Position numbers and translations under genes: made by a program
Notes under the pieces: generated by a model
The model's input: the letters and a program-made list of their open reading frames with translations, nothing else
What the model was told of the DNA's origin: nothing
The model's database searches: none
Part shown: positions 19,577-46,520 of the stretch, in pieces
Layout of the letters: each line of letters starts with the position of its first letter
How positions within the stretch are numbered: position 1 is the stretch's first letter
Virus record (IMG/VR): IMGVR_UViG_3300028388_005617
Span: 1 to 48,762 of that record
DNA from: a virus
Strand: one strand, 5' to 3'
DNA length: 48,762 nucleotides

Positions 19577-20317
19577 TCACCCAATCATATCTAATACAAC
19601 GCCTGATGAGCCTGAAATAATATCCTGCTCCATCTTTTCGATTTCTTGTTGCGCTTCGTCGTAAATACGTTGGCCGTTCATGGTGAGTCCACCAGGTAAC
19701 TGAATTCCTTCAAATTTTTTCAAATTTTCACCCCATTGTCGCTTGATCAACTGTGTAGTATAGTCGCGCAACCAGCGATCCCCATAAACGTCCGAAAAAG
19801 ATTCGGGGTCAATGAGCCGGTAGACTTCTAAAATGATGTAATCGCCCACGTCTACGTCTTCCACCCAATCCATATCAATATAGATACGGTTGATATGACG
19901 ATTAAACCTTATTGGCTTTTCACCCACAAACAACTTGTCAGCTTCTGCCAAATTCATCATAGTAATGTAATAATGTGAAAATGTGGCAGATGAAAAATCG
20001 TAGACATCGTTAAGACGAAGTTGGTATCTAACATCAAACATGTTAGCCACACGCTTGTCGGTTGGATCAAAAACGCGCACAACTCCAAGAATCGCGTCAT
20101 CGACTTCGACATACTTATCGTCGATATTTTGTTGGGTGACTTCATGGGCAATGTACGTTCTTTCTGCTCCATCGTAATGATAGTCATGGTAGAATTTTAA
20201 GGCATCGTCAATGCGATCTTCGGCTTGGGTGTCATCAACGTTAATTTCAATGACAGGTTTGCCTAGCTTTCTAAGACAATATTCCTTTAATTCATTTCTT
20301 GTGGTGGGATTGGCCAT
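19577..20317 (-). CDS. 13: Neck protein gp13
   Basis: This is the head-completion/neck protein that seals the packaged head (T4: 309 residues; here 246). The N-terminus TRNELKEYCLRKLGKPVIEINV and the following DRIDDALKFYHDYHYDG are highly characteristic, as is the C-terminal WGENLKKFEGIQLPGGLTMNGQ block. It opens the minus-strand neck/terminase operon and faces the plus-strand heptose cassette. A near-match late promoter (CATAAATA) lies 38 bases upstream. Confidence 0.92.
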   Translation of the reverse strand: MANPTTRNELKEYCLRKLGKPVIEINVDDTQAEDRIDDALKFYHDYHYDGAERTYIAHEVTQQNIDDKYVEVDDAILGVVRVFDPTDKRVANMFDVRYQLRLNDVYDFSSATFSHYYITMMNLAEADKLFVGEKPIRFNRHINRIYIDMDWVEDVDVGDYIILEVYRLIDPESFSDVYGDRWLRDYTTQLIKRQWGENLKKFEGIQLPGGLTMNGQRIYDEAQQEIEKMEQDIISGSSGVVLDMIG

Positions 20318-20354
20318 TTTTTGGTCAAGCTAAATATTTGGTAGATTATGCTTA

Positions 20355-20362
20355 TATTTATG
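20355..20362 (-). promoter_or_regulatory. Near-consensus late promoter before gene 13
   Basis: Minus-strand CATAAATA (seven of eight bases of the T4 late octamer) lies 38 bases upstream of the gene 13 ATG, within the 71-base divergent gap to the heptose cassette. No convincing promoter for the plus-strand cassette is visible in the same gap. Confidence 0.5.
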
Positions 20363-20388
20363 TATCAATACATGACAAGTTCATTTTT

Positions 20389-21606
20389 ATGTACACAGGT
20401 GACATCGTAGTTATTGGCGACGTCTTCATCGACGAATACATCGTTGGCTCTACAAATCGTGTGAGTCCAGAAGCCCCTGTTCCGGTGGTCAATGAGCAAG
20501 AAAGGTTTAGACGCATGGGCGGAGCCGCCAATGTGTTTCGGATCATTCGTGAAAATGCTTCATCGAATGTATACCTTATTGGTGGATTTGATACGAAGGA
20601 CAAAGAATTTTTTGGCAAGGGCGCATTTAGTTGTTTTCCATCACATACTAACATAAAGACAAGGGTTGTTTCTAATGACCAACAAATTGTTCGCGTCGAT
20701 AAAGAAACAAAACATAATGTTGCTTTCTACGACATTAAAGAAGTTCTTGACGACATCGATTTGAACTCGATTGGCCTTGTGGTCTTGAGTGACTATGACA
20801 AAGGCGTCTTACAAAAAGATGACACACAAAAACTCATTGAATATTTATCAATCTATGGCATACCTGTCTTTGTAGATACCAAAGACAAGTTTTCTAAGTA
20901 TGCTGGTGCCCATGTAATCAAGGCCAATGAAACTGAATTTGAAAAATATTTCGAGCCTGTAGGATCGTATTACATCCAAACGCTTGGTAAACATGGGTGC
21001 AAACTTTACACCAATGATTCACTACAAGTGGTCAAAGATTTTGAGTCCGATCAAGTGTATGTGAGCGATGTTACCGGTGCTGGTGACACGTTTCTAGCCT
21101 TTTTATCACTTTATTTTAATGAGCAATGGGACATCACCTATGCTATTGAAATGGCCAACAAAGCTGCGGGGCTTTCGGTGCAACATCTTGGCAATCATTT
21201 AGTCAAACGACAAGATTTAGAACCACGTACCATTTTTACCAATGGGTGTTTTGACATTTTGCATCTTGGCCATATTTCATTGCTAAATTATGCACAATCC
21301 CTTGGCGACAGACTTGTGGTTGGCCTTAATTCTGACCGCTCCGTGAAACGTCTTAAAGGTGAAAATCGCCCCATCAATGATGAGCGTACTCGTAAACGTA
21401 TGCTAGAATTATTGGGATTTGAAGTGCATATTTTTGACGAAGATACTCCATACAACCTTATCAAGAAAGTCAAACCCCATGTCATCGTCAAGGGGGGCGA
21501 TTATGAAGTTAGCGAAGTGGTTGGCCGTGACTTGGCCGAAGTCAAACTTTTTGAGTATGTGGAAGATTTTTCAACAACGAACATAATAGATAAAATTAAA
21601 GAATGA
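20389..21606 (+). CDS. hldE: HldE-like bifunctional heptose-7-phosphate kinase / heptose-1-phosphate adenylyltransferase
   Basis: HldE makes ADP-D-glycero-beta-D-manno-heptose in two steps: a PfkB/ribokinase-type domain phosphorylates C1 of heptose-7-phosphate, and a nucleotidyltransferase domain adenylates heptose-1-phosphate. I start it at the ATG at 20389 (MYTGDIVVIGDVFIDEY), matching the bacterial start; the frame is open further upstream without good initiation. Of 405 residues (E. coli: 477), the first part has RVSPEAPVPVV, GGAANV, LSDYDKGVL and the VTGAGDTF active site (about 228-235). The second has TNGCFDILHLGH (about 284-295), NSDRSVKRLKGENRPIN, VKGGDYEV and the C-terminal STTNII motif. 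Both domains look intact. It leads a three-gene overlapping cassette. Confidence 0.92.
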   Translation: MYTGDIVVIGDVFIDEYIVGSTNRVSPEAPVPVVNEQERFRRMGGAANVFRIIRENASSNVYLIGGFDTKDKEFFGKGAFSCFPSHTNIKTRVVSNDQQIVRVDKETKHNVAFYDIKEVLDDIDLNSIGLVVLSDYDKGVLQKDDTQKLIEYLSIYGIPVFVDTKDKFSKYAGAHVIKANETEFEKYFEPVGSYYIQTLGKHGCKLYTNDSLQVVKDFESDQVYVSDVTGAGDTFLAFLSLYFNEQWDITYAIEMANKAAGLSVQHLGNHLVKRQDLEPRTIFTNGCFDILHLGHISLLNYAQSLGDRLVVGLNSDRSVKRLKGENRPINDERTRKRMLELLGFEVHIFDEDTPYNLIKKVKPHVIVKGGDYEVSEVVGRDLAEVKLFEYVEDFSTTNIIDKIKE

Positions 21607-21965
21607 GACTAGAAGGTTTTCAAAAAAAGGGATGGGGTCATGAGCTCATATGGGCAACCAACAATTTGTACTGTGGCAAACTCATGGTATTTGAAAAGGC
21701 AGGCAACAAATTTTCAATGCACTTTCATGCTACCAAAGATGAGTCTTGGTATGTACTAAAAGGGGAATTTGAGGTCAAGTGGATTCAAACCAAAGACGCT
21801 TCAGAAAGAACAGAAGTGTTGCGAGAAGGCGATACTTGGAGAAACGAGCCACTTGAACCCCATCAACTTATCGCTCGTACAGATGGTGCTACGATTTTGG
21901 AAGTGTCTACACCTGACAGCGTAGAAGACAATTACCGAGTGCAAAAAGGGGATTCCCAAAAATGA
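21603..21965 (+). CDS. Small cupin protein (phosphomannose-isomerase type)
   Basis: This 120-residue single-domain cupin has motif 1 G34..H40-F-H42-x4-E47-x6-G54 (with SMHFHATKDESWYVLKGEF) and motif 2 containing PHQ (H87). The four metal ligands are therefore present. The WGHELIWATN start resembles the cupin domain of type II mannose-6-phosphate isomerases and other sugar-phosphate cupins. It overlaps the end of hldE and the start of hldD by four bases each, so it almost certainly works on the same sugar. It may be an isomerase or epimerase step, but the substrate is not evident. It is not homologous to GmhA or GmhB, the usual missing steps. Confidence 0.75.
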   Translation: MRLEGFQKKGWGHELIWATNNLYCGKLMVFEKAGNKFSMHFHATKDESWYVLKGEFEVKWIQTKDASERTEVLREGDTWRNEPLEPHQLIARTDGATILEVSTPDSVEDNYRVQKGDSQK

Positions 21966-22906
21966 ATCACGTCATAATCACAGGTGGTCTTGGGTTTATT
22001 GGTAGCGAACTGATCACTAGAATTTCAGCCAAAAAAATCACATTGATAGAAACATGGGTGACAAATTCTGTCGCCCAAAGGAACATCAAAATTCACAAAA
22101 TGAAGAATTTGCGTCAAATTTTGCCAAAAGACGTAAAATTTTCAGTTTTACAGCTTGACGAATTCTGGTCAGAAGCCAATTCTGATATGTTCACTGATTG
22201 CGATTTAGTGTATCACCTAGGGGCAATTTCAAATACAAGGTGTACCGATTGGGATTTATTTCAAAAATACAACGTGGACGCCACCATTCGACTTATTCAA
22301 TGGTGTGACCGTCACAATATTCCAATGGTCAATGCTTCATCTGCGAGTGTCTATGGTGGGCACCAAGATATTTGTATTGAAGATAAGACGCCGGAAAAAC
22401 CACTCAATCATTATGCCACATCCAAAAAAATCATAGACAATCATATACGTCACGTCAATGTTGGTATTAGCATTGCGTCACTTCGCTATTTTAACGTGTA
22501 CTCGTTCTATGACATAAGAAACTTAAAGACTGAAGAGCATAAAATCCTTGAACAGCAATCTTCACCACACTACAAATGGAGCCGACAAGTAAAGGTGGAC
22601 AAAGACTACGAAATCAAACTTTTTGAGGGTTCTGAAAAAATCTTTCGCGATTTTATCAATGTTGGGCTAGTGGCCGAGTTGACAGCTCAATTTGGTCAAA
22701 AAATCCTAACACAAAAGGTCAAAGATGTATTTAATATTGGCACATCTACACCACGATCATTCATAGATGTTTTTGATAGTGTCAATGCATTAGCTGATCA
22801 AAAGGCCAAGGCTGTCATGGTTGACTTTCCTGTTGGCTTAAAAGAAGGGTATCAATATTATACCCAAGCATCTATGGATAAAACCTATGCTTTTTTGAAC
22901 TCGTAA
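21962..22906 (+). CDS. hldD: HldD-like ADP-heptose 6-epimerase (extended SDR)
   Basis: HldD converts ADP-D-glycero-manno-heptose to ADP-L-glycero-manno-heptose. The 314-residue protein (E. coli: 310) has a Rossmann GGLGFIGSEL at the N-terminus, YHLGAISNTRCTDWD (as HEGACSSTTEWD in HldD), NASSASVYGG, the YATSK catalytic Tyr/Lys, SLRYFNVY, LFEGSEKIFRDFINVG (family LFEGSENFKRDFVYVG) and a C-terminal KEGYQYYTQASM block (family KGRYQAFTQADL). These HldD-specific blocks separate it from generic UDP-sugar epimerases. It is the last gene of the cassette and is followed by a hairpin terminator. Retention of both HldE and HldD suggests active supply of the L-form for LPS-core or other glycans. Confidence 0.9.
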   Translation: MNHVIITGGLGFIGSELITRISAKKITLIETWVTNSVAQRNIKIHKMKNLRQILPKDVKFSVLQLDEFWSEANSDMFTDCDLVYHLGAISNTRCTDWDLFQKYNVDATIRLIQWCDRHNIPMVNASSASVYGGHQDICIEDKTPEKPLNHYATSKKIIDNHIRHVNVGISIASLRYFNVYSFYDIRNLKTEEHKILEQQSSPHYKWSRQVKVDKDYEIKLFEGSEKIFRDFINVGLVAELTAQFGQKILTQKVKDVFNIGTSTPRSFIDVFDSVNALADQKAKAVMVDFPVGLKEGYQYYTQASMDKTYAFLNS

Positions 22907-22918
22907 GGCAAAGGTTTT

Positions 22919-22938
22919 GGGGGTCACAATCGACCCCC
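22919..22938 (+). terminator. Terminator of the heptose cassette
   Basis: A 7-bp GC-rich stem GGGGGTC (22919-22925) / GACCCCC (22932-22938) with a 6-base loop is followed by TTTCCTTTATTC on the plus strand. It lies between the convergent hldD and carbamoyltransferase genes. On the minus strand the same stem lacks a following T-run. Confidence 0.75.
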
Positions 22939-22944
22939 TTTCCT

Positions 22945-24783
22945 TTATTCTTCTTCGTTGGAGTCGTTTGAGCTTGTATCGTCATGGACTTCAGTCAACG
23001 ATTCGTCTTCGTCATCACCAATAGACAAAATTTCATCCGTATTTTCGACATAAACTAGTTTCCCCAACTCCGGAAGCCATAGGTATTCAAGTCTTGAATG
23101 CTTGAGTGTGTGTAATGCATCTTCAACTGTTTCTACCAATGGGTCACCTGCAAGGTTGAAGCTTGTGTTGAAAAGAATTGGCACATCGCTAAGAGCTTTG
23201 AATTCTGAAATTAACTCGTAGTAATGTTCATTCTGCTCCTTTGTGACTGTTTGTACACGACAAGTATTGTCAACATGGGTAATGGAAGGTATGAGCGACT
23301 CTTTGCCCTCTTTCACATCCACAGCATACATCATATATGGAGACTCTTCCATACCTGCAAGGTCAAACCATTCATGAGCATCTTCTGCTAAGACTGTCCC
23401 AGCAAATGGTCTAAACCACTCACGCCCTTTGACCTTATTGACAAAAGCTTTTCCATCTTCAACGGTTGGATCAAATAGAATAGAACGATTACCCAACGCC
23501 CTAGGACCGGCTTCGCATCTACCTTGTAAGATCGTTACAATATTACCTTGGCGAATAAGCTCTGCAACTTCTTTGCTTGTTGATTCTGTTACTGTAGCTC
23601 CTTCAAGGTCTAGTTCTTCTAAGTCGGAAGCATGGTCATGATCAAATCCTAAGTAAAGTGTGGATAGAGGTTCAATTTCAACGTCTTCTTGAAGTTTGCT
23701 ATACAAAAGCTTGGCTAATCCAACAGACGTTCCACCATCATGGGAAATGGGGTCAACAAATAAGTCAATTTCTGGGAATCTCTTTCTAAGATAATAATTA
23801 GCTACGCAATTAAGCCCATAGCCACCTGAAAGACAAATTTTGGTGCATCCCGTACGGTCAATAGCATACTCAATCAAATCCCCAACCGCTTGTTGGGTTT
23901 GAGTTTGAATTGCATAGGCCAAGTCTGCATAATGTGGCCTCATGAGGTTTTCATTGTTATGCCACGCACGAAGGTCTTTTTGCTTTTCTTCGGGTACGAT
24001 TTCTCCACATCCTTTGTCTTCAAATGGATGAATTTCAGTCAAATCTAAAAAAGCACCCCTTGGATATGCACCTTTGAATATGTTTCGATTTGCACGTCCA
24101 TTGACAATCAAATCCGGCAAATCTTCATTTTCTTTTCCATAGGGTGCTAATCCCATCGTCTTGCCTGCTTCGATAAAGTGAAACCCAAGAAAATCGGTAA
24201 CTGCTTCGTATGCTTTTGTGAGCGTTGGCCTATCGTTTATGATAAACTCAATTTCGGAGTTTGGAAGCATTCGCTTGAAATTTGGAGCGTTATTTTCCCC
24301 CAAACTTGTGTAAAGCATTTCGGGCTTGCCATCTTGGAAATAAAATATGGTTTCAGCTTCAAAGCCAAAGAGCTCTTCTGAAAGATATTTCCTTGAGCCA
24401 CTTCCATCAACGACAAGTGAAATAGCGTCATCAAAACCTGAATTGTAGTACGCACCAGCAGCATGCCCTGCGTGGTGGTCATTGCCCATGCTATGTATTT
24501 TTATTTGTGGATAATGCTTTCTAGCAATGGCTTGGTAGCTATTTTCACCTGTCCAAGGAAGTCGGTCATACTCACTATGTGTACCGCCAATAACCAAATC
24601 GGTAATTTCAAAATTTTGAAGGCCATAGAGCATACCCAGAAATGGATTACCATCTCGTTTGAGCCTTGATAGCCTTTCTTCTTCTACATAGTATAAAAGC
24701 TTTCCATCCCTCACAACAGCAGTTGAGCCATTGTGACCAGGATTGATAGCCATAACCGTGGTTGGTGTATTTTGCTTTGTCAT
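22945..24783 (-). CDS. Carbamoyltransferase (NodU/CmcH/TobZ family)
   Basis: Enzymes of this family transfer a carbamoyl group from carbamoyl phosphate, through carbamoyl-AMP, to a hydroxyl of a sugar or antibiotic. The 612-residue protein has the Kae1-like N-terminal half starting AINPGHNGSTAVVRDG (12-27), the metal-binding HHAGHAAG (103-110) and VVDGSGSR (124-131), CLSGGYGLNCVANYYLR, and a C-terminal domain with GRCEAGPRALGNRSI and RPFAGTVL. Active-site landmarks appear intact. The C-terminus is an acidic Ser/Asp/Glu tail. It starts on the stop codon of the GT9-like gene, so the two are coupled. Carbamoyltransferases occur, as I recall, in many marine T4-like phages; the acceptor here may be the heptose-containing glycan. 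Confidence 0.9.
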   Translation of the reverse strand: MTKQNTPTTVMAINPGHNGSTAVVRDGKLLYYVEEERLSRLKRDGNPFLGMLYGLQNFEITDLVIGGTHSEYDRLPWTGENSYQAIARKHYPQIKIHSMGNDHHAGHAAGAYYNSGFDDAISLVVDGSGSRKYLSEELFGFEAETIFYFQDGKPEMLYTSLGENNAPNFKRMLPNSEIEFIINDRPTLTKAYEAVTDFLGFHFIEAGKTMGLAPYGKENEDLPDLIVNGRANRNIFKGAYPRGAFLDLTEIHPFEDKGCGEIVPEEKQKDLRAWHNNENLMRPHYADLAYAIQTQTQQAVGDLIEYAIDRTGCTKICLSGGYGLNCVANYYLRKRFPEIDLFVDPISHDGGTSVGLAKLLYSKLQEDVEIEPLSTLYLGFDHDHASDLEELDLEGATVTESTSKEVAELIRQGNIVTILQGRCEAGPRALGNRSILFDPTVEDGKAFVNKVKGREWFRPFAGTVLAEDAHEWFDLAGMEESPYMMYAVDVKEGKESLIPSITHVDNTCRVQTVTKEQNEHYYELISEFKALSDVPILFNTSFNLAGDPLVETVEDALHTLKHSRLEYLWLPELGKLVYVENTDEILSIGDDEDESLTEVHDDTSSNDSNEEE

Positions 24784-41737: not shown

Positions 41738-42340
41738 ATGGCCATAAAAGTTTTCGACAGAATCCTTATTCAAGGTATCAATGCTGGGCAAATACCTGCT
41801 CGCACCCAACAAGCACGTGAGTGGTTTAGAAGTCGTGCACGCAGGAGTCGTACAACCACGCCTGGCGATATACAAAAAGCTGAAATTGATCGGGTCAAGG
41901 GTAGGCCTCAAATTGGTAAAATGTATTTTTACAACTACGACCCAAAGTTTAAGAATGACGATAAAGTATTGCCTTACTATGATATTTTTCCATGCACCAT
42001 CATTGTAGACTATACAAAAGACGGCTGGTATGGGCTAAATCTTCATTATCTGCCTTTGAAAGAAAGGGCAATATTATTGGATGCACTATATGGCGTTGTG
42101 TCGGACACTCGATATGATCGGGCTACAGCTTTTCGTATCACGTACAATATGCTCAACACCATGTCTCAATTCAAAGAATTTAGACCAACTTTGAAACGCT
42201 ATATCGCAAATAGAGTTGGGGGTAAAATCATAGAAGTCTTTTCTTCTGAATGGGATATAGCCATGTTCTTACCGGTAGAAAAATTCAAGAAGGCTAGTGC
42301 TCGTAAAGTATGGGCTGACAGTCGCAAAAAAATACGATGA
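41738..42340 (+). CDS. Probable DNA end protector gp2-like protein
   Basis: This 200-residue basic protein directly follows gp4, and T4 genes 2 and 4 are adjacent. The central block GKMYFYNYDPKFKNDD...LPYYDIFPCTIIVDY and GLNLHYLPLKERAILLDALYGVV is a pattern I associate with proteins listed as gp2 (DNA end protector) in marine T4-like phages. The C-terminus has W-x-x-A-x-FLPVEKFKKASARKVWADS. In T4 gp2 caps the ends of packaged DNA and protects it from RecBCD. The N-terminal 50 residues are Arg-rich, consistent with DNA contact. Identity with T4 gp2 is uncertain. Its stop overlaps the gp54 start (ATGA). Confidence 0.55.
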   Translation: MAIKVFDRILIQGINAGQIPARTQQAREWFRSRARRSRTTTPGDIQKAEIDRVKGRPQIGKMYFYNYDPKFKNDDKVLPYYDIFPCTIIVDYTKDGWYGLNLHYLPLKERAILLDALYGVVSDTRYDRATAFRITYNMLNTMSQFKEFRPTLKRYIANRVGGKIIEVFSSEWDIAMFLPVEKFKKASARKVWADSRKKIR

Positions 42341-43239
42341 GTAGGTTAATCAAAGCTGCACTTTCTGGGCGAAGTCAATTCAATGTTGAAAAATTTCGAT
42401 CGCAAATTTCTGCCCTTGGTGGTCTTGCAGGCTCGGCTAATTTCTATGTTAGAATCTACCCACCAAAAACCTTGCTAAGTGTCGACAATGCTTCACGGCT
42501 TTTATATGCTGTCGACAACGCGGCTAATTTGTTTGGGAAGCGAATTCCCTTGGATACTGACTATGCTGAAAGGGCAAGACTTGAAGTGCCCCGTGACTTT
42601 GAATTTTTAGCAAGCACGGCGACCATTCCCGGCAAGACCATAAGCACAAACGACATCACGCAAAACTATGGACCACTTCGAAAGATACCTTATGATGTGC
42701 TATATGAAGACTTGAGCATATCACTATATGTGAGGTCCGCACAAATGGAGCGATATTTTTTCGAAATTTGGCAAAATTCTATCCTTTCTCACTACGACAT
42801 TGGAGCAGGTGGAAAAGACGGCGCACTTCAAGATGCACTTAATTCTGCTTCAGGCACGGTGCTTGATCGACTTGGACTTCAAAATGGTGGTGGTAGTGCG
42901 GCCAAAGTTTTGAAAGAAAATGCTATTTCGTGGTATGAAGATATTATCTCAAGACTTGAAATTTACTACTTCGATCCGGACGGAGAAGAACGATTCAAAG
43001 TCACGTTCTATGAAGTGCTTCCAACTGCTGTGGCGTCAATGCCTCTTGATTGGTCTCAAAGCAATGATGTCATGCGCCTAAGTGTCACCTTTGCATATAA
43101 ATATTACGACATGGAAGTCGTACAACCCACTGAAATCAAGCGTATTGCATATTTCACCAAAGGCTTGGCTGAAGGCAGGACATCACTTTCATCGGTGGCT
43201 TCAACACTTACTGCCACGACAAATTCATTATTAAACTAA
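42337..43239 (+). CDS. 54: Baseplate tail-tube initiator gp54
   Basis: gp54 sits on gp48 and provides the first ring for the tail tube. The 300-residue protein (T4: 320) has the tube fold: a strand with SANFYVRIYPPKTLL, LEVPRDFEFLASTATIPGKTI, YEDLSISLYVRSAQMERYFFEIWQNSI and FKVTFYEVLPTAVASMPLDWSQSNDVMRLSVTFAYKYYDME, which is the gp19-like C-terminal block. Ile/Leu-rich helices fill the middle. It lies in the plus-strand tail operon with gp4 and gp26; in this genome its partner gp48 is on the opposite strand. Confidence 0.82.
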   Translation: MSRLIKAALSGRSQFNVEKFRSQISALGGLAGSANFYVRIYPPKTLLSVDNASRLLYAVDNAANLFGKRIPLDTDYAERARLEVPRDFEFLASTATIPGKTISTNDITQNYGPLRKIPYDVLYEDLSISLYVRSAQMERYFFEIWQNSILSHYDIGAGGKDGALQDALNSASGTVLDRLGLQNGGGSAAKVLKENAISWYEDIISRLEIYYFDPDGEERFKVTFYEVLPTAVASMPLDWSQSNDVMRLSVTFAYKYYDMEVVQPTEIKRIAYFTKGLAEGRTSLSSVASTLTATTNSLLN

Positions 43240-43245
43240 TTGATT

Positions 43246-43962
43246 ATGCCCTTACCTAATTTAAAATCCCCAACACATACTCTAACCATACCTTCTAACA
43301 GTCAAGAAGTGCAATATAGACCATTCTTGGTAAGTGAAGAAAAGATATTGCTTATGGCAATGGAGGGTAATGACCAAACGGAAATCGTAAAAGCACTCAA
43401 GCAAATTATTTCCAATTGCACCAACGACACAGTAGACGTATCAAAGCTCACATTGTTTGACTTGGAATACATCTTTTTAAATTTACGCGCTAAGTCTATT
43501 GGTAATGAAATCGAATTGACTGCCAAAATTAAGTGTGAAAGTCCGGAATGTCCAAAGCAAGTGCCATTGACGGTTGATTTAAACGATGTACAGGTAGTCG
43601 AAAATGAACATCACACTGACAAATATATGCTAAACAATGAAGTGGGTATTGCCTTGAAATATCCATCCATTGATTCGGTAAATAAATTGCAAAGCACGGA
43701 CATGGGCATAGATGAAATGTTTGACATAATTGTGGACTCGATTGACTATATCTATGACACCGAAAACACCTATCCAGCTTCCGAACAAAGTCGCCAAGAA
43801 CTAGTCGATTTTTTAGACTCGTTTACAGATGAGCAGTTCAAGAAAATCATGACTTTTTTTGATACCATGCCACGCCTTGAAAAAGAAGTTGAAGTGACGT
43901 GTCCAAATTGTGGTCGAACCGAAACCACCAAATTGTCGGGGCTTCAAAGTTTTTTCGTCTAG
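43246..43962 (+). CDS. 26: Baseplate hub/tail assembly protein gp26
   Basis: This 238-residue protein begins at the ATG at 43246 (MPLPNLKSPTHTL); a TTG two codons earlier is less likely. It shows the gp26-type pattern: VQYRPFLVSEEKILLMAMEG, TLFDLEYIFLNLRAKSIGNEI, a CESPECPKQ segment and a CPNCGRTETTKLSGLQSFFV terminus, so two Cys pairs (C-x4-C and C-x2-C) may bind zinc. The DSFTDEQFKKIMTFFDTMPRLE region near 185-205 is highly characteristic. In T4, gp26 and gp51 act in hub assembly. Its last codons contain a slippery T TTT TTC and the gp51 sequence continues in the -1 frame, so a longer frameshift product is expected. Confidence 0.85.
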   Translation: MPLPNLKSPTHTLTIPSNSQEVQYRPFLVSEEKILLMAMEGNDQTEIVKALKQIISNCTNDTVDVSKLTLFDLEYIFLNLRAKSIGNEIELTAKIKCESPECPKQVPLTVDLNDVQVVENEHHTDKYMLNNEVGIALKYPSIDSVNKLQSTDMGIDEMFDIIVDSIDYIYDTENTYPASEQSRQELVDFLDSFTDEQFKKIMTFFDTMPRLEKEVEVTCPNCGRTETTKLSGLQSFFV

Positions 43963-44141
43963 GGCTAGGGCACAATTCTCTAGCCAACTATTACACGGTC
44001 ACGTTCCAATTAGTGCAACACCATAAATATTCATTAACGGAAATAGAAAACCTAATCCCATTTGAACGTGACATCTACATTGCGATGCTTCAAAAGTGGA
44101 TTGAAGAAGAAAACGAGCGACAAAAACAAAGGCTAAACTAG
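43246..44141 (+). CDS. Predicted gp26-gp51 -1 frameshift fusion
   Basis: If ribosomes slip back one base at 43950-43956, the gp26 frame reads ...LQSFF and continues RLGLGHNSLANYY into the gp51 frame, giving about 298 residues (237 from gp26, 61 from gp51). The seam falls exactly where gp51-family sequences begin (FFRLALSHN-type, as I recall). This mimics G/GT of lambda and E/E' of P2, tail-assembly chaperones in which a minority product with an added domain binds the tape-measure protein, here encoded next. A slip would be expected in only a fraction of ribosomes. Evidence is sequence architecture only. Confidence 0.6.
43950..43985 (+). promoter_or_regulatory. Programmed -1 frameshift signal (slippery heptamer and stem-loop)
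   Basis: The slippery heptamer T TTT TTC occupies 43950-43956 in gp26 phase (AGT TTT TTC GTC TAG). After a 6-base spacer a stem begins: GGCTAG (43963-43968) pairs with CTAGCC (43980-43985), extended inward by a G-U pair (43969/43979) and a G-C pair (43970/43978) around a 7-base loop. The 0-frame stop TAG lies one codon after the heptamer. Position, phase and spacing match known phage and viral -1 frameshift sites. Confidence 0.72.
43956..44141 (+). CDS. 51: gp51-like segment, read in the -1 frame of gp26
   Basis: These 61 codons encode RLGLGHNSLANYY, then TFQLVQHHKYSLTEIENLIPFERDIY, then a charged EEENERQKQRLN end. I recognise this as the gp51 type (hub assembly catalyst) of marine T4-like phages. 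The frame is open further upstream to a GTG at 43899, but that part is only the shadow of the gp26 CPNCGR region. There is no ATG before the conserved sequence; the first Met is near the C-terminus. I therefore think it is translated mainly by frameshift from gp26. T4 gp51 is required catalytically for hub formation and is absent from the virion, like tail chaperones. Confidence 0.65.
   Translation, partial: RLGLGHNSLANYYTVTFQLVQHHKYSLTEIENLIPFERDIYIAMLQKWIEEENERQKQRLN
44022..44029 (+). promoter_or_regulatory. Possible late promoter before the tape-measure gene
   Basis: Plus-strand CATAAATA (seven of eight bases of the late octamer) lies inside the gp51 segment, about 115 bases upstream of the tape-measure start. 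This could be a chance match in AT-rich coding DNA. Confidence 0.3.
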
Positions 44142-44144
44142 CAA

Positions 44145-46520
44145 GTGGACGATCTTAACAAAGAAATAGCAAATCAAATAGGCGACGAGCTTGAACGATT
44201 TGAAAATGAAAAATCATTTGGTGAGCTAGTCAAACAATTTCGTGAGTCCAATCTTGCAGAAGAAGCTACGGGCACCATTGAAAAACTACGCACAGTTTTA
44301 GAAGCCCTACCAGACGAAATTGAAGAAATCGCTACGACTCCACTTGACAAGGCTGAAGAAATTCTATCTACGCCTGGTGCTACAAATCAAGACATCAATG
44401 ACTTACGCGAAGTTCTTGGCGAGTTTCGCCAACAAGTTGAAGATAATGCCGACATTGATGAAAAGTCAACCAAAAAACTTCAAGAGCTACTTGATGCCAC
44501 AGATAAACGTCTTGAGCTTCAACTTGAAGGGTTTGGACAGAAACTTGCACGACAAGTTGGCGACAACATCAAAGCAGTTACATCCGCTGTCGTTGGTAAG
44601 CTTCAAGAAACAGGAAACTTTTTGGTTTCATCTATTGGTGGTGACAGTCCTTTAGTTCGCAATTTAACAAGTTTTGTCACCCAGGGCACTAAAGACTTTG
44701 TTTTAAATACCAAAAATTTCTTAACCCAGCGAAAAGAAGCGAAGCAACGAAGCGAAGAAAACAAGGAGCGTCTACGAAAAGAGCTTAGTGTACAAGAGCT
44801 TCAAGAAAAACAAGCACAAAAGGCCGCGGAACGTCAAGCGGCTACAGAAGAATATCGTGAGTCAACGACTGAAATCAATCAAAATCAGTCTGAAATTTTA
44901 GAAGCTATAAAAGACGATACATCTGCGATTCGTTCAGTTGTTGAAGGTGAGACTGAATCACCCAAGGTTGAGGGTGAAACGCCTTCTTCACAAGAGCAAA
45001 TGATTCAGGAAGTCGTGCCTGCACAAATTGAATCTACGGAAACGGTTGAAGAGCTTGATGCAAGGATATTAGAAGCTATACGATCAGGTGACATTGAGTT
45101 GGTCAATCAGCTCCAAGCACAAAAAGAACAACTTGCAAATCAGAATGATCTTGCAAAAGAGCAAGTTGAACAGCAAAGTGTCAATCGTGAAGTGCAGCAA
45201 CAAGCTAATCTTGAAGTTGAAGCTGAAAAACAACGCCGTGATGAACGCATGATTCAAGCCATTGAAGGCATTTCAATGAGCGAAGGCGTTGACGTTGAAG
45301 AAGAAAAACTCGATTTGTCATCAGCACTCATGGCCTTGGTTGGATTTACGACTGCATTCATATCTGGATTTGCTTCATCGGTGCAGAAGCAACTACAACT
45401 TGTCTTTGGCCCAATCATAAAAGCGTTCAAAAATTCCAAAATTGGCAAATTAGTATCAAATGTGTTTAGCTCAATACGTGGATTTTTTGCAAATATCGTT
45501 ACAAAATTCAAAGGGTCGAAACTTGGGTCGTTTATTGACGACATCTTTAAGAACATTTCAAAGTCACCCATAGGGAAGTTGTTTACCAAAATTGGCAACA
45601 CCTTCAAGAAACTTGACAAATTTGTGAAACCTTTGTTTGGGTCGGCAGACGAAGTGGCTGGGATTGCAGGCAAATTTATGCGTGTGGGTAAAGCATTAGG
45701 GTCAACACTTGGCAAATTCTTTTTGCCCATCACGGTGTTACTCGCTACCATTGATACGGTAAAAGGATTTATTCAGGGCTTCCGTGAAGGTGGTCTTGTG
45801 GAGGGGGTCAAAGGTGCATTGGAAGGATTGTTTTCTTCCCTTGTGGGAACACCATTGAATCTACTCAAAGATTTGGTAGGGTGGATTGCAGGTAAACTTG
45901 GATTTGAAAACGTCCAAGAACGTCTCGCAGAATTTGATTTCAATGAGTTGTATTCGAAGTTTGTTGACGCGGGGTTTGCGTTTTATGGCAACCTCGGTGA
46001 GTCAATCATGGGTGCATTCAACAAACTCAAAACCTTTTTTGTCGACACGTTCACGGACTTTGATTTGTCCGAAACCTTGGAGTCTATTTCGGGTGTAATC
46101 AACCGATTGTTCACCGCATTGAAAGATGCAACCGTTGGTAAAATCAAAGAGATTGGAGCAAATATCCCTTTGGTTGGCCGATTCTTTGGTGGGGGTGAAA
46201 ATCAAGACCAAGATGTTCAATCAACGACCGAAGTCATCACCCAATCACAATTTGCCGTTCTTGATCAGCCAACAGTAGAGCCAACAACAGTTGAGCTTGA
46301 CGATATGGAAGTCAAACAACGTACTCTTAATAGTACAGTGCAAATGGGTGAAAAGTTTCAACAAAGCCAATCAATGGCAGAACAAGCTCAAGATATGGCC
46401 ATAAAAAATGGGGCGACCGCAACAACGATCGCCCCAATCACAAACCAAAACGTCACAAACTCGTCAAATGCCGTAGTTATTAGACGTGACGTGAGGAATT
46501 CAAAACAAGCTACGATCTAG
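44145..46520 (+). CDS. Tail tape-measure / hub protein (gp29-like role)
   Basis: This is a 791-residue protein with the architecture of a tape measure. The N-terminal half is long, charged and coiled-coil-like (Gln/Glu/Lys-rich, residues about 1-385). Three hydrophobic segments follow: SSALMALVGFTTAFISGFAS near 391-410, FFLPITVLLATIDTVKGFI near 525-543, and LLKDLVGWIAGKLGF near 570-585. The C-terminal tail is Thr/Gln/Asn-rich. The start is GTG at 44145, preceded by AAAGG at 44128-44132, six bases after the gp51 stop and in the same frame. It directly follows the gp26/gp51 chaperone-like pair, the standard place of tape-measure genes. T4 gp29 (590 residues) does this job; I see no clear sequence match to it. 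Its last bases overlap gene 32. Confidence 0.72.
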   Translation: MDDLNKEIANQIGDELERFENEKSFGELVKQFRESNLAEEATGTIEKLRTVLEALPDEIEEIATTPLDKAEEILSTPGATNQDINDLREVLGEFRQQVEDNADIDEKSTKKLQELLDATDKRLELQLEGFGQKLARQVGDNIKAVTSAVVGKLQETGNFLVSSIGGDSPLVRNLTSFVTQGTKDFVLNTKNFLTQRKEAKQRSEENKERLRKELSVQELQEKQAQKAAERQAATEEYRESTTEINQNQSEILEAIKDDTSAIRSVVEGETESPKVEGETPSSQEQMIQEVVPAQIESTETVEELDARILEAIRSGDIELVNQLQAQKEQLANQNDLAKEQVEQQSVNREVQQQANLEVEAEKQRRDERMIQAIEGISMSEGVDVEEEKLDLSSALMALVGFTTAFISGFASSVQKQLQLVFGPIIKAFKNSKIGKLVSNVFSSIRGFFANIVTKFKGSKLGSFIDDIFKNISKSPIGKLFTKIGNTFKKLDKFVKPLFGSADEVAGIAGKFMRVGKALGSTLGKFFLPITVLLATIDTVKGFIQGFREGGLVEGVKGALEGLFSSLVGTPLNLLKDLVGWIAGKLGFENVQERLAEFDFNELYSKFVDAGFAFYGNLGESIMGAFNKLKTFFVDTFTDFDLSETLESISGVINRLFTALKDATVGKIKEIGANIPLVGRFFGGGENQDQDVQSTTEVITQSQFAVLDQPTVEPTTVELDDMEVKQRTLNSTVQMGEKFQQSQSMAEQAQDMAIKNGATATTIAPITNQNVTNSSNAVVIRRDVRNSKQATI
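46403..46436 (-). terminator. Gene 32 terminator embedded in the tape-measure coding sequence
   Basis: An 8-bp perfect stem TGGGGCGA (46409-46416) / TCGCCCCA (46429-46436) with a 12-base loop. On the minus strand it is followed by TTTTTT (plus A-run 46403-46408), a complete intrinsic terminator about 80 bases past the gp32 stop. On the plus strand it encodes part of the tape-measure tail and has no T-run, so plus transcription should pass. Confidence 0.8.

Follow-up and report, generated by a model that had tools for sequence, protein, structure and literature searches.

A conserved T TTT TTN slip site and a probable programmed -1 frameshift joining gp26- and gp51-type tail assembly chaperone domains in T4-like phages

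The sequence analysed here, termed the window, is the 48,762-nucleotide IMG/VR record IMGVR_UViG_3300028388_005617. Its source is an uncultivated T4-like phage, the window's genes being those of a T4-like myophage and including markers for the major head protein, portal, terminase, tail sheath, baseplate wedge and ssDNA-binding protein. The locus of interest contains, in order, a tail-tube-like gene, a putative short chaperone gene of the gp26 type, a gp51-type C domain in the -1 frame and a long tape-measure-protein-like (TMP-like) gene, with a heptamer and a hairpin at the junction of the chaperone gene and the C domain (Table 1). The C-terminus of the gp26 protein resembles a CxxC zinc ribbon in this phage. 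Elsewhere in the window (20299-24783), two genes adjoin the head-tail connector gene, one assigned to phrog_7878, with a heptose-kinase/adenylyltransferase-like C-terminus, and the other to phrog_1601, a Nol-like carbamoyltransferase.

Table 1. Features of the gp26/gp51-type locus in the window and the basis of each assignment.
Feature	Position	Strand	Basis
Tail-tube-like gene (phrog_45), upstream of gp26	42337..43239	+	E 3.4e-33
gp26-type gene, 238 aa	43246..43962	+	Pfam T4_baseplate PF12322 E 5e-67; phrog_150 E 1.5e-72
gp26-type gene, assigned role: short tail assembly chaperone form (TAC-N)	43246..43962	+	
-1 slippery heptamer T TTT TTC, gp26 phase	43950..43956	+	read directly in sequence
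Stem-loop, 8 bp, 7-nt loop, likely stimulator	43963..43985	+	fold z -2.8; spacing enriched among relatives
-1-frame ORF segment, 61 aa + stop, gp51-type C domain (TAC-C)	43956..44141	+	phrog_634 E 3.7e-27
Probable tape-measure gene, 791 aa, GTG start	44145..46520	+	position, length, composition, phiM12 homologue

A first-pass annotation, made from the sequence alone, had proposed that the gp26 gene ends in an in-phase -1 slippery heptamer, and direct reading confirms this: the 3' end is AGT TTT TTC GTC TAG (AGT 43948-50, TTT 43951-53, TTC 43954-56, GTC 43957-59, stop TAG 43960-43962), leaving one sense codon (GTC) between heptamer and stop. From 43956 the -1 frame reads CGT CTA GGG CTA GGG CAC (RLGLGH...) to a stop ending at 44141, in agreement with the further claim that it passes through CGT CTA GGG into a gp51-type protein lacking an ATG of its own; no ATG precedes the conserved part of the 61-aa domain in this frame, where only GTG 43899 and TTG 43908 occur. 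We rejected the heptamer by itself as proof of slippage, TTTTTTC not being enriched in the window (25 occurrences against 36 expected) and the window's genes containing 106 in-phase XXXYYYZ heptamers. In so AT-rich a window the heptamer arises often by chance; the evidence for a slip site is comparative.

The comparison set comprised 160 IMG/VR loci, found with the gp26 or gp51 domain, and 14 phage records. Both parts were detected by tblastn in 171 loci, representing 145 distinct junctions, and since the queries were proteins the searches did not select for synonymous codons. The gp51 domain lies in the -1 frame in all 171 of these loci, and an in-phase T TTT TTN is present at 144 of the 145 distinct junctions, counts that are not independent events given the relatedness among junctions. 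Its forms are TTTTTTC (107 junctions), TTTTTTT (27), TTTTTTA (nine) and TTTTTTG (one). Given the encoded residues and the codon usage of the family, T TTT would be expected at about 63 of the 144; internal xFF sites of the same genes, the majority of which are a conserved Phe-Phe 32 codons upstream, take the form T TTT TTY in 13 of 163 instances. When junctions are thinned to <80% identity, none of the 81 that remain departs from the six T, and flanking third-codon positions mostly vary. The conserved set spans cyanophages, Pelagibacter-/Methylophilales-type phages, rhizobial phages, a Nitratidesulfovibrio phage and Vibrio D525, and inspection by eye reveals the same slip site in Aeromonas Ah1; heptamer, phase, frame and the missing independent start are common to Kyanoviridae-type, rhizobial, Nitratidesulfovibrio, Vibrio and Aeromonas phages. 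At the sole junction without the heptamer (L149, around position 1897) the gp26 codons up to the slip site are seemingly lost, and the exception appears to reflect either a deletion within gp26 or misassembly of its sequence.

The gp51-type domain might instead be a separate gene, translated from an independent start or by ribosomes that terminate at the gp26 stop and then reinitiate. Consistent with this, a separate CDS is annotated in P-SSM2, phiM12, RHph_I46 and D525, an in-frame ATG is available at 49 of the 144 junctions, and TAATG overlaps occur in Vibrio K469 and Ackermannviridae A221; conceivable starts of this kind are GTG 43899 in the window phage and, in one clade of cyanophages, an ATG located just past the end of gp26. 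Against it, 95 of the 144 junctions have no ATG from the opening of the -1 frame to domain residue 8, and in several relatives that frame opens merely 6-9 nt before the slip. A gp51 start codon with its own ribosome site, which the first-pass annotation had named as evidence against its proposal, was not encountered as an ATG with a Shine-Dalgarno sequence among the 144 junctions (0 of the 49 with an in-frame ATG); gp26's own start bears one in 87 of 131 cases. Annotated starts of the C domain vary, falling inside the conserved domain in Mosig and Melnitz-3, and a separate gene leaves the invariant in-phase T6 unexplained. We consider independent initiation very unlikely.

The region 3' of the heptamer contributes further evidence. 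In the window phage the predicted hairpin, described beforehand as an 8-bp stem with one G-U pair and a 7-base loop lying 6 bases on, is found exactly so, its arms GGCTAGGG (43963-70) and CTCTAGCC (43978-85) enclosing the loop CACAATT and beginning 6 nt past the heptamer; the 51-nt fold has an energy of -12.0 kcal/mol (z -2.8). This phage therefore has 3' structure within the spacing of about 5-9 nt expected of -1 frameshift stimulators, and hairpins in relatives start about 5-6 nt past the heptamer. Across the relatives, mean folding energy in 40-nt windows is minimal directly past the heptamer (-6.4 kcal/mol, versus about -1 to -5.5 elsewhere), and stems of at least 7 bp cluster at outer-pair offsets 11-16 from the first base of the heptamer (23 cases versus 0.2 per position overall). 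The registers of these hairpins differ: three clades, the first of them P-SSM2-like cyanophages, have pair sums of 54, 52 and 43, and the window has 48; in the cyanophage clade one pair is changed on both sides, from T-A to G-C. A universal conserved hairpin was rejected: by shuffle z-score about half of the junctions lack a significant one downstream, and the hairpin is accordingly an accessory, lineage-specific element. Of the features singled out in the first-pass annotation for alignment across T4-like phages, the heptamer and its phase are thus conserved (144/145), whereas the stem belongs to particular lineages.

Slippage of RNA polymerase on the T run, giving rise to shifted mRNAs, is scarcely credible, for while the conserved element is a homopolymer run that exceeds six T in some relatives, 107 of the 144 runs are six T followed by C, six-T runs are shorter than usually needed for efficient transcriptional slippage, and the strict T TTT TTN phase together with hairpins at ribosomal spacing favours ribosomal frameshifting. 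We hold it highly probable that ribosomes, by a programmed -1 frameshift, produce two tail assembly chaperones from a single start.

The T4 proteins provide a comparison for the product of such a frameshift. A profile built on the slipped fusion aligns with T4 gp51 (249 aa) over the N domain, across the junction and on into the C domain (E 4e-10); its match to T4 gp26 ends at the slip position (E 5e-22). In T4 the long form is the single-frame gene 51 and the short form gene 26, on opposite strands. This natural in-frame N+C fusion supports the slipped product as the functional one elsewhere. The analogy drawn earlier with T4 gp26 and gp51 holds insofar as the N and N+C products are homologous, and is inexact insofar as T4 has two separate genes on opposite strands and no frameshift. 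Vladimirov and colleagues reportedly named gp26 and gp51 as the T4 chaperones, genes 26 and 51 encoding the two forms, and are said to have found frameshifting conserved in several T4-like groups.

Position and homology to the T4 pair make a TAC-N/TAC-NC system, with a short N form and a long N+C form, a well-supported prediction for this locus. The AlphaFold2 model of gp26 (pLDDT 92) has as its best PDB matches by Foldseek probability both chains of the HK97 tail assembly chaperone 2OB9 (0.57 and 0.44), matches that are not significant (E 0.8-1.9; for the match at probability 0.57, TM-score by target 0.43 and E 0.83); among predicted viral structures the model matches T4-type baseplate hub proteins, and a profile search of the PDB by sequence gave no match. 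The 791-aa protein encoded downstream has two hydrophobic segments and very low Cys/Trp content, and its gene is homologous to one in phiM12 whose record notes 'similarity to phage tape measure proteins'. Where a tape-measure gene was expected to follow, a long TMP-like gene is present, with no detectable homology to T4 gp29; the label therefore relies on position, length, composition and the phiM12 record note. In most relatives a long TMP-like ORF follows the C domain directly or after an ORF of about 100-140 aa. This intervening ORF, absent in the window, occurs in many relatives (L009, L019, L055, L062, L065, L080, L084, L159, L170, L173, L175 and others).

As anticipated in the first-pass annotation, the gene order, with a long TMP-like gene in the tape-measure position, matches the layout of lambda G/GT and P2 E/E', in which a short chaperone and its -1 extended form are encoded directly upstream of the tape-measure gene. 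It differs from those systems in that no sequence relationship to them was found here and that gp26 is larger, with the CxxC C-terminus in the window phage; the lambda heptamer is GGGAAAG, unlike T TTT TTC. We infer the slip, its rate and the chaperone role: the majority of ribosomes would read gp26 to its TAG, yielding the short form, and a minority would pause at the heptamer, aided in the window phage by the hairpin, where both Phe tRNAs would re-pair one base back on T TTT TTC, so that the gp51-type domain of 61 aa is appended. If the two forms act as lambda gpG and gpGT do, the product of the following gene, the tape-measure protein, would be coated by the N part, and tube subunits would be recruited by the C domain of the long form, the rarer of the two.

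A tail-chaperone frameshift in T4-like phages is not new, having already been described in 2022 (Vladimirov, Gautam & Davidson, Virology 2022, as cited in PMC10885494 for the tail chaperones of these phages); some T4-like phages, by the same citing account, use a separate fusion gene in place of frameshifting. PMC12846349 attributes to the 2022 study the poly-T slippery sequences of TAC-N genes in this phage group, and a 2016 review (PMC5009743) still gave T4 as the exception among long-tailed phages. So far as these citing papers portray them, the chaperones of that study share gene family and poly-T slippery sequences in TAC-N with ours, and the window phage is probably an additional member. 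A related case is the TAC locus of Vandenendeviridae and Andersonviridae (PMC12846349), in which the TAC-N gene, lying upstream of the tape measure, likewise has a T-rich site for a conserved -1 frameshift at its 3' end, likewise predicted from conservation and missed by usual annotation, and which differs in its GTTTTT motif and in occurring in other phage families.

The suggestion that routine annotation overlooks frameshifting between genes 26 and 51 is upheld by the annotated slip-bearing public records inspected, none of which gives a joined CDS; the C domain appears in them as a separate, truncated or missing gene. The gene pair is carried by hundreds of marine T4-like phage genomes, and recognition of the frameshift corrects how they are annotated; in cyanophages and related phages it also directs attention to the tail chaperone pair and, through gene position, to the tape measure. 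The comparative data constitute independent support for the published frameshift proposal, of which we know no experimental test.

Certain lineages show variant arrangements. Ackermannviridae (L166, L176, L177, L178) and Vibrio K469 (L167) lack the T6 heptamer, yet their C domain is still in the -1 frame, the Ackermannviridae gp26 genes ending ATT TTC ATT TAA or GTT TTC ATC TGA. The TAATG overlap of A221 and K469 is represented at the same place by ATT or ATC in KFSST3, Matapan and 3M, and in all these records the C domain is unannotated or a hypothetical protein. Considering also that non-homologous hairpins (pair sums 43, 48, 51-54 and 62) start within a few nucleotides of one spacing, we tentatively raise the possibility, to which we give somewhat less than even weight, that the T6 slip site is ancient and has stayed fixed, that the stimulator has been reinvented several times, and that some lineages without the heptamer use another route. 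If stimulators are indeed replaced in this way, the locus would offer a natural series in which to follow the turnover of recoding signals. Aeromonas phage Ah1 (L171, 3714-3887; also Aeh1) has an unannotated C domain after GAT TTT TTC GAC TGA, and the frameshift layout is therefore present in Straboviridae too, beside the two-gene version of T4.
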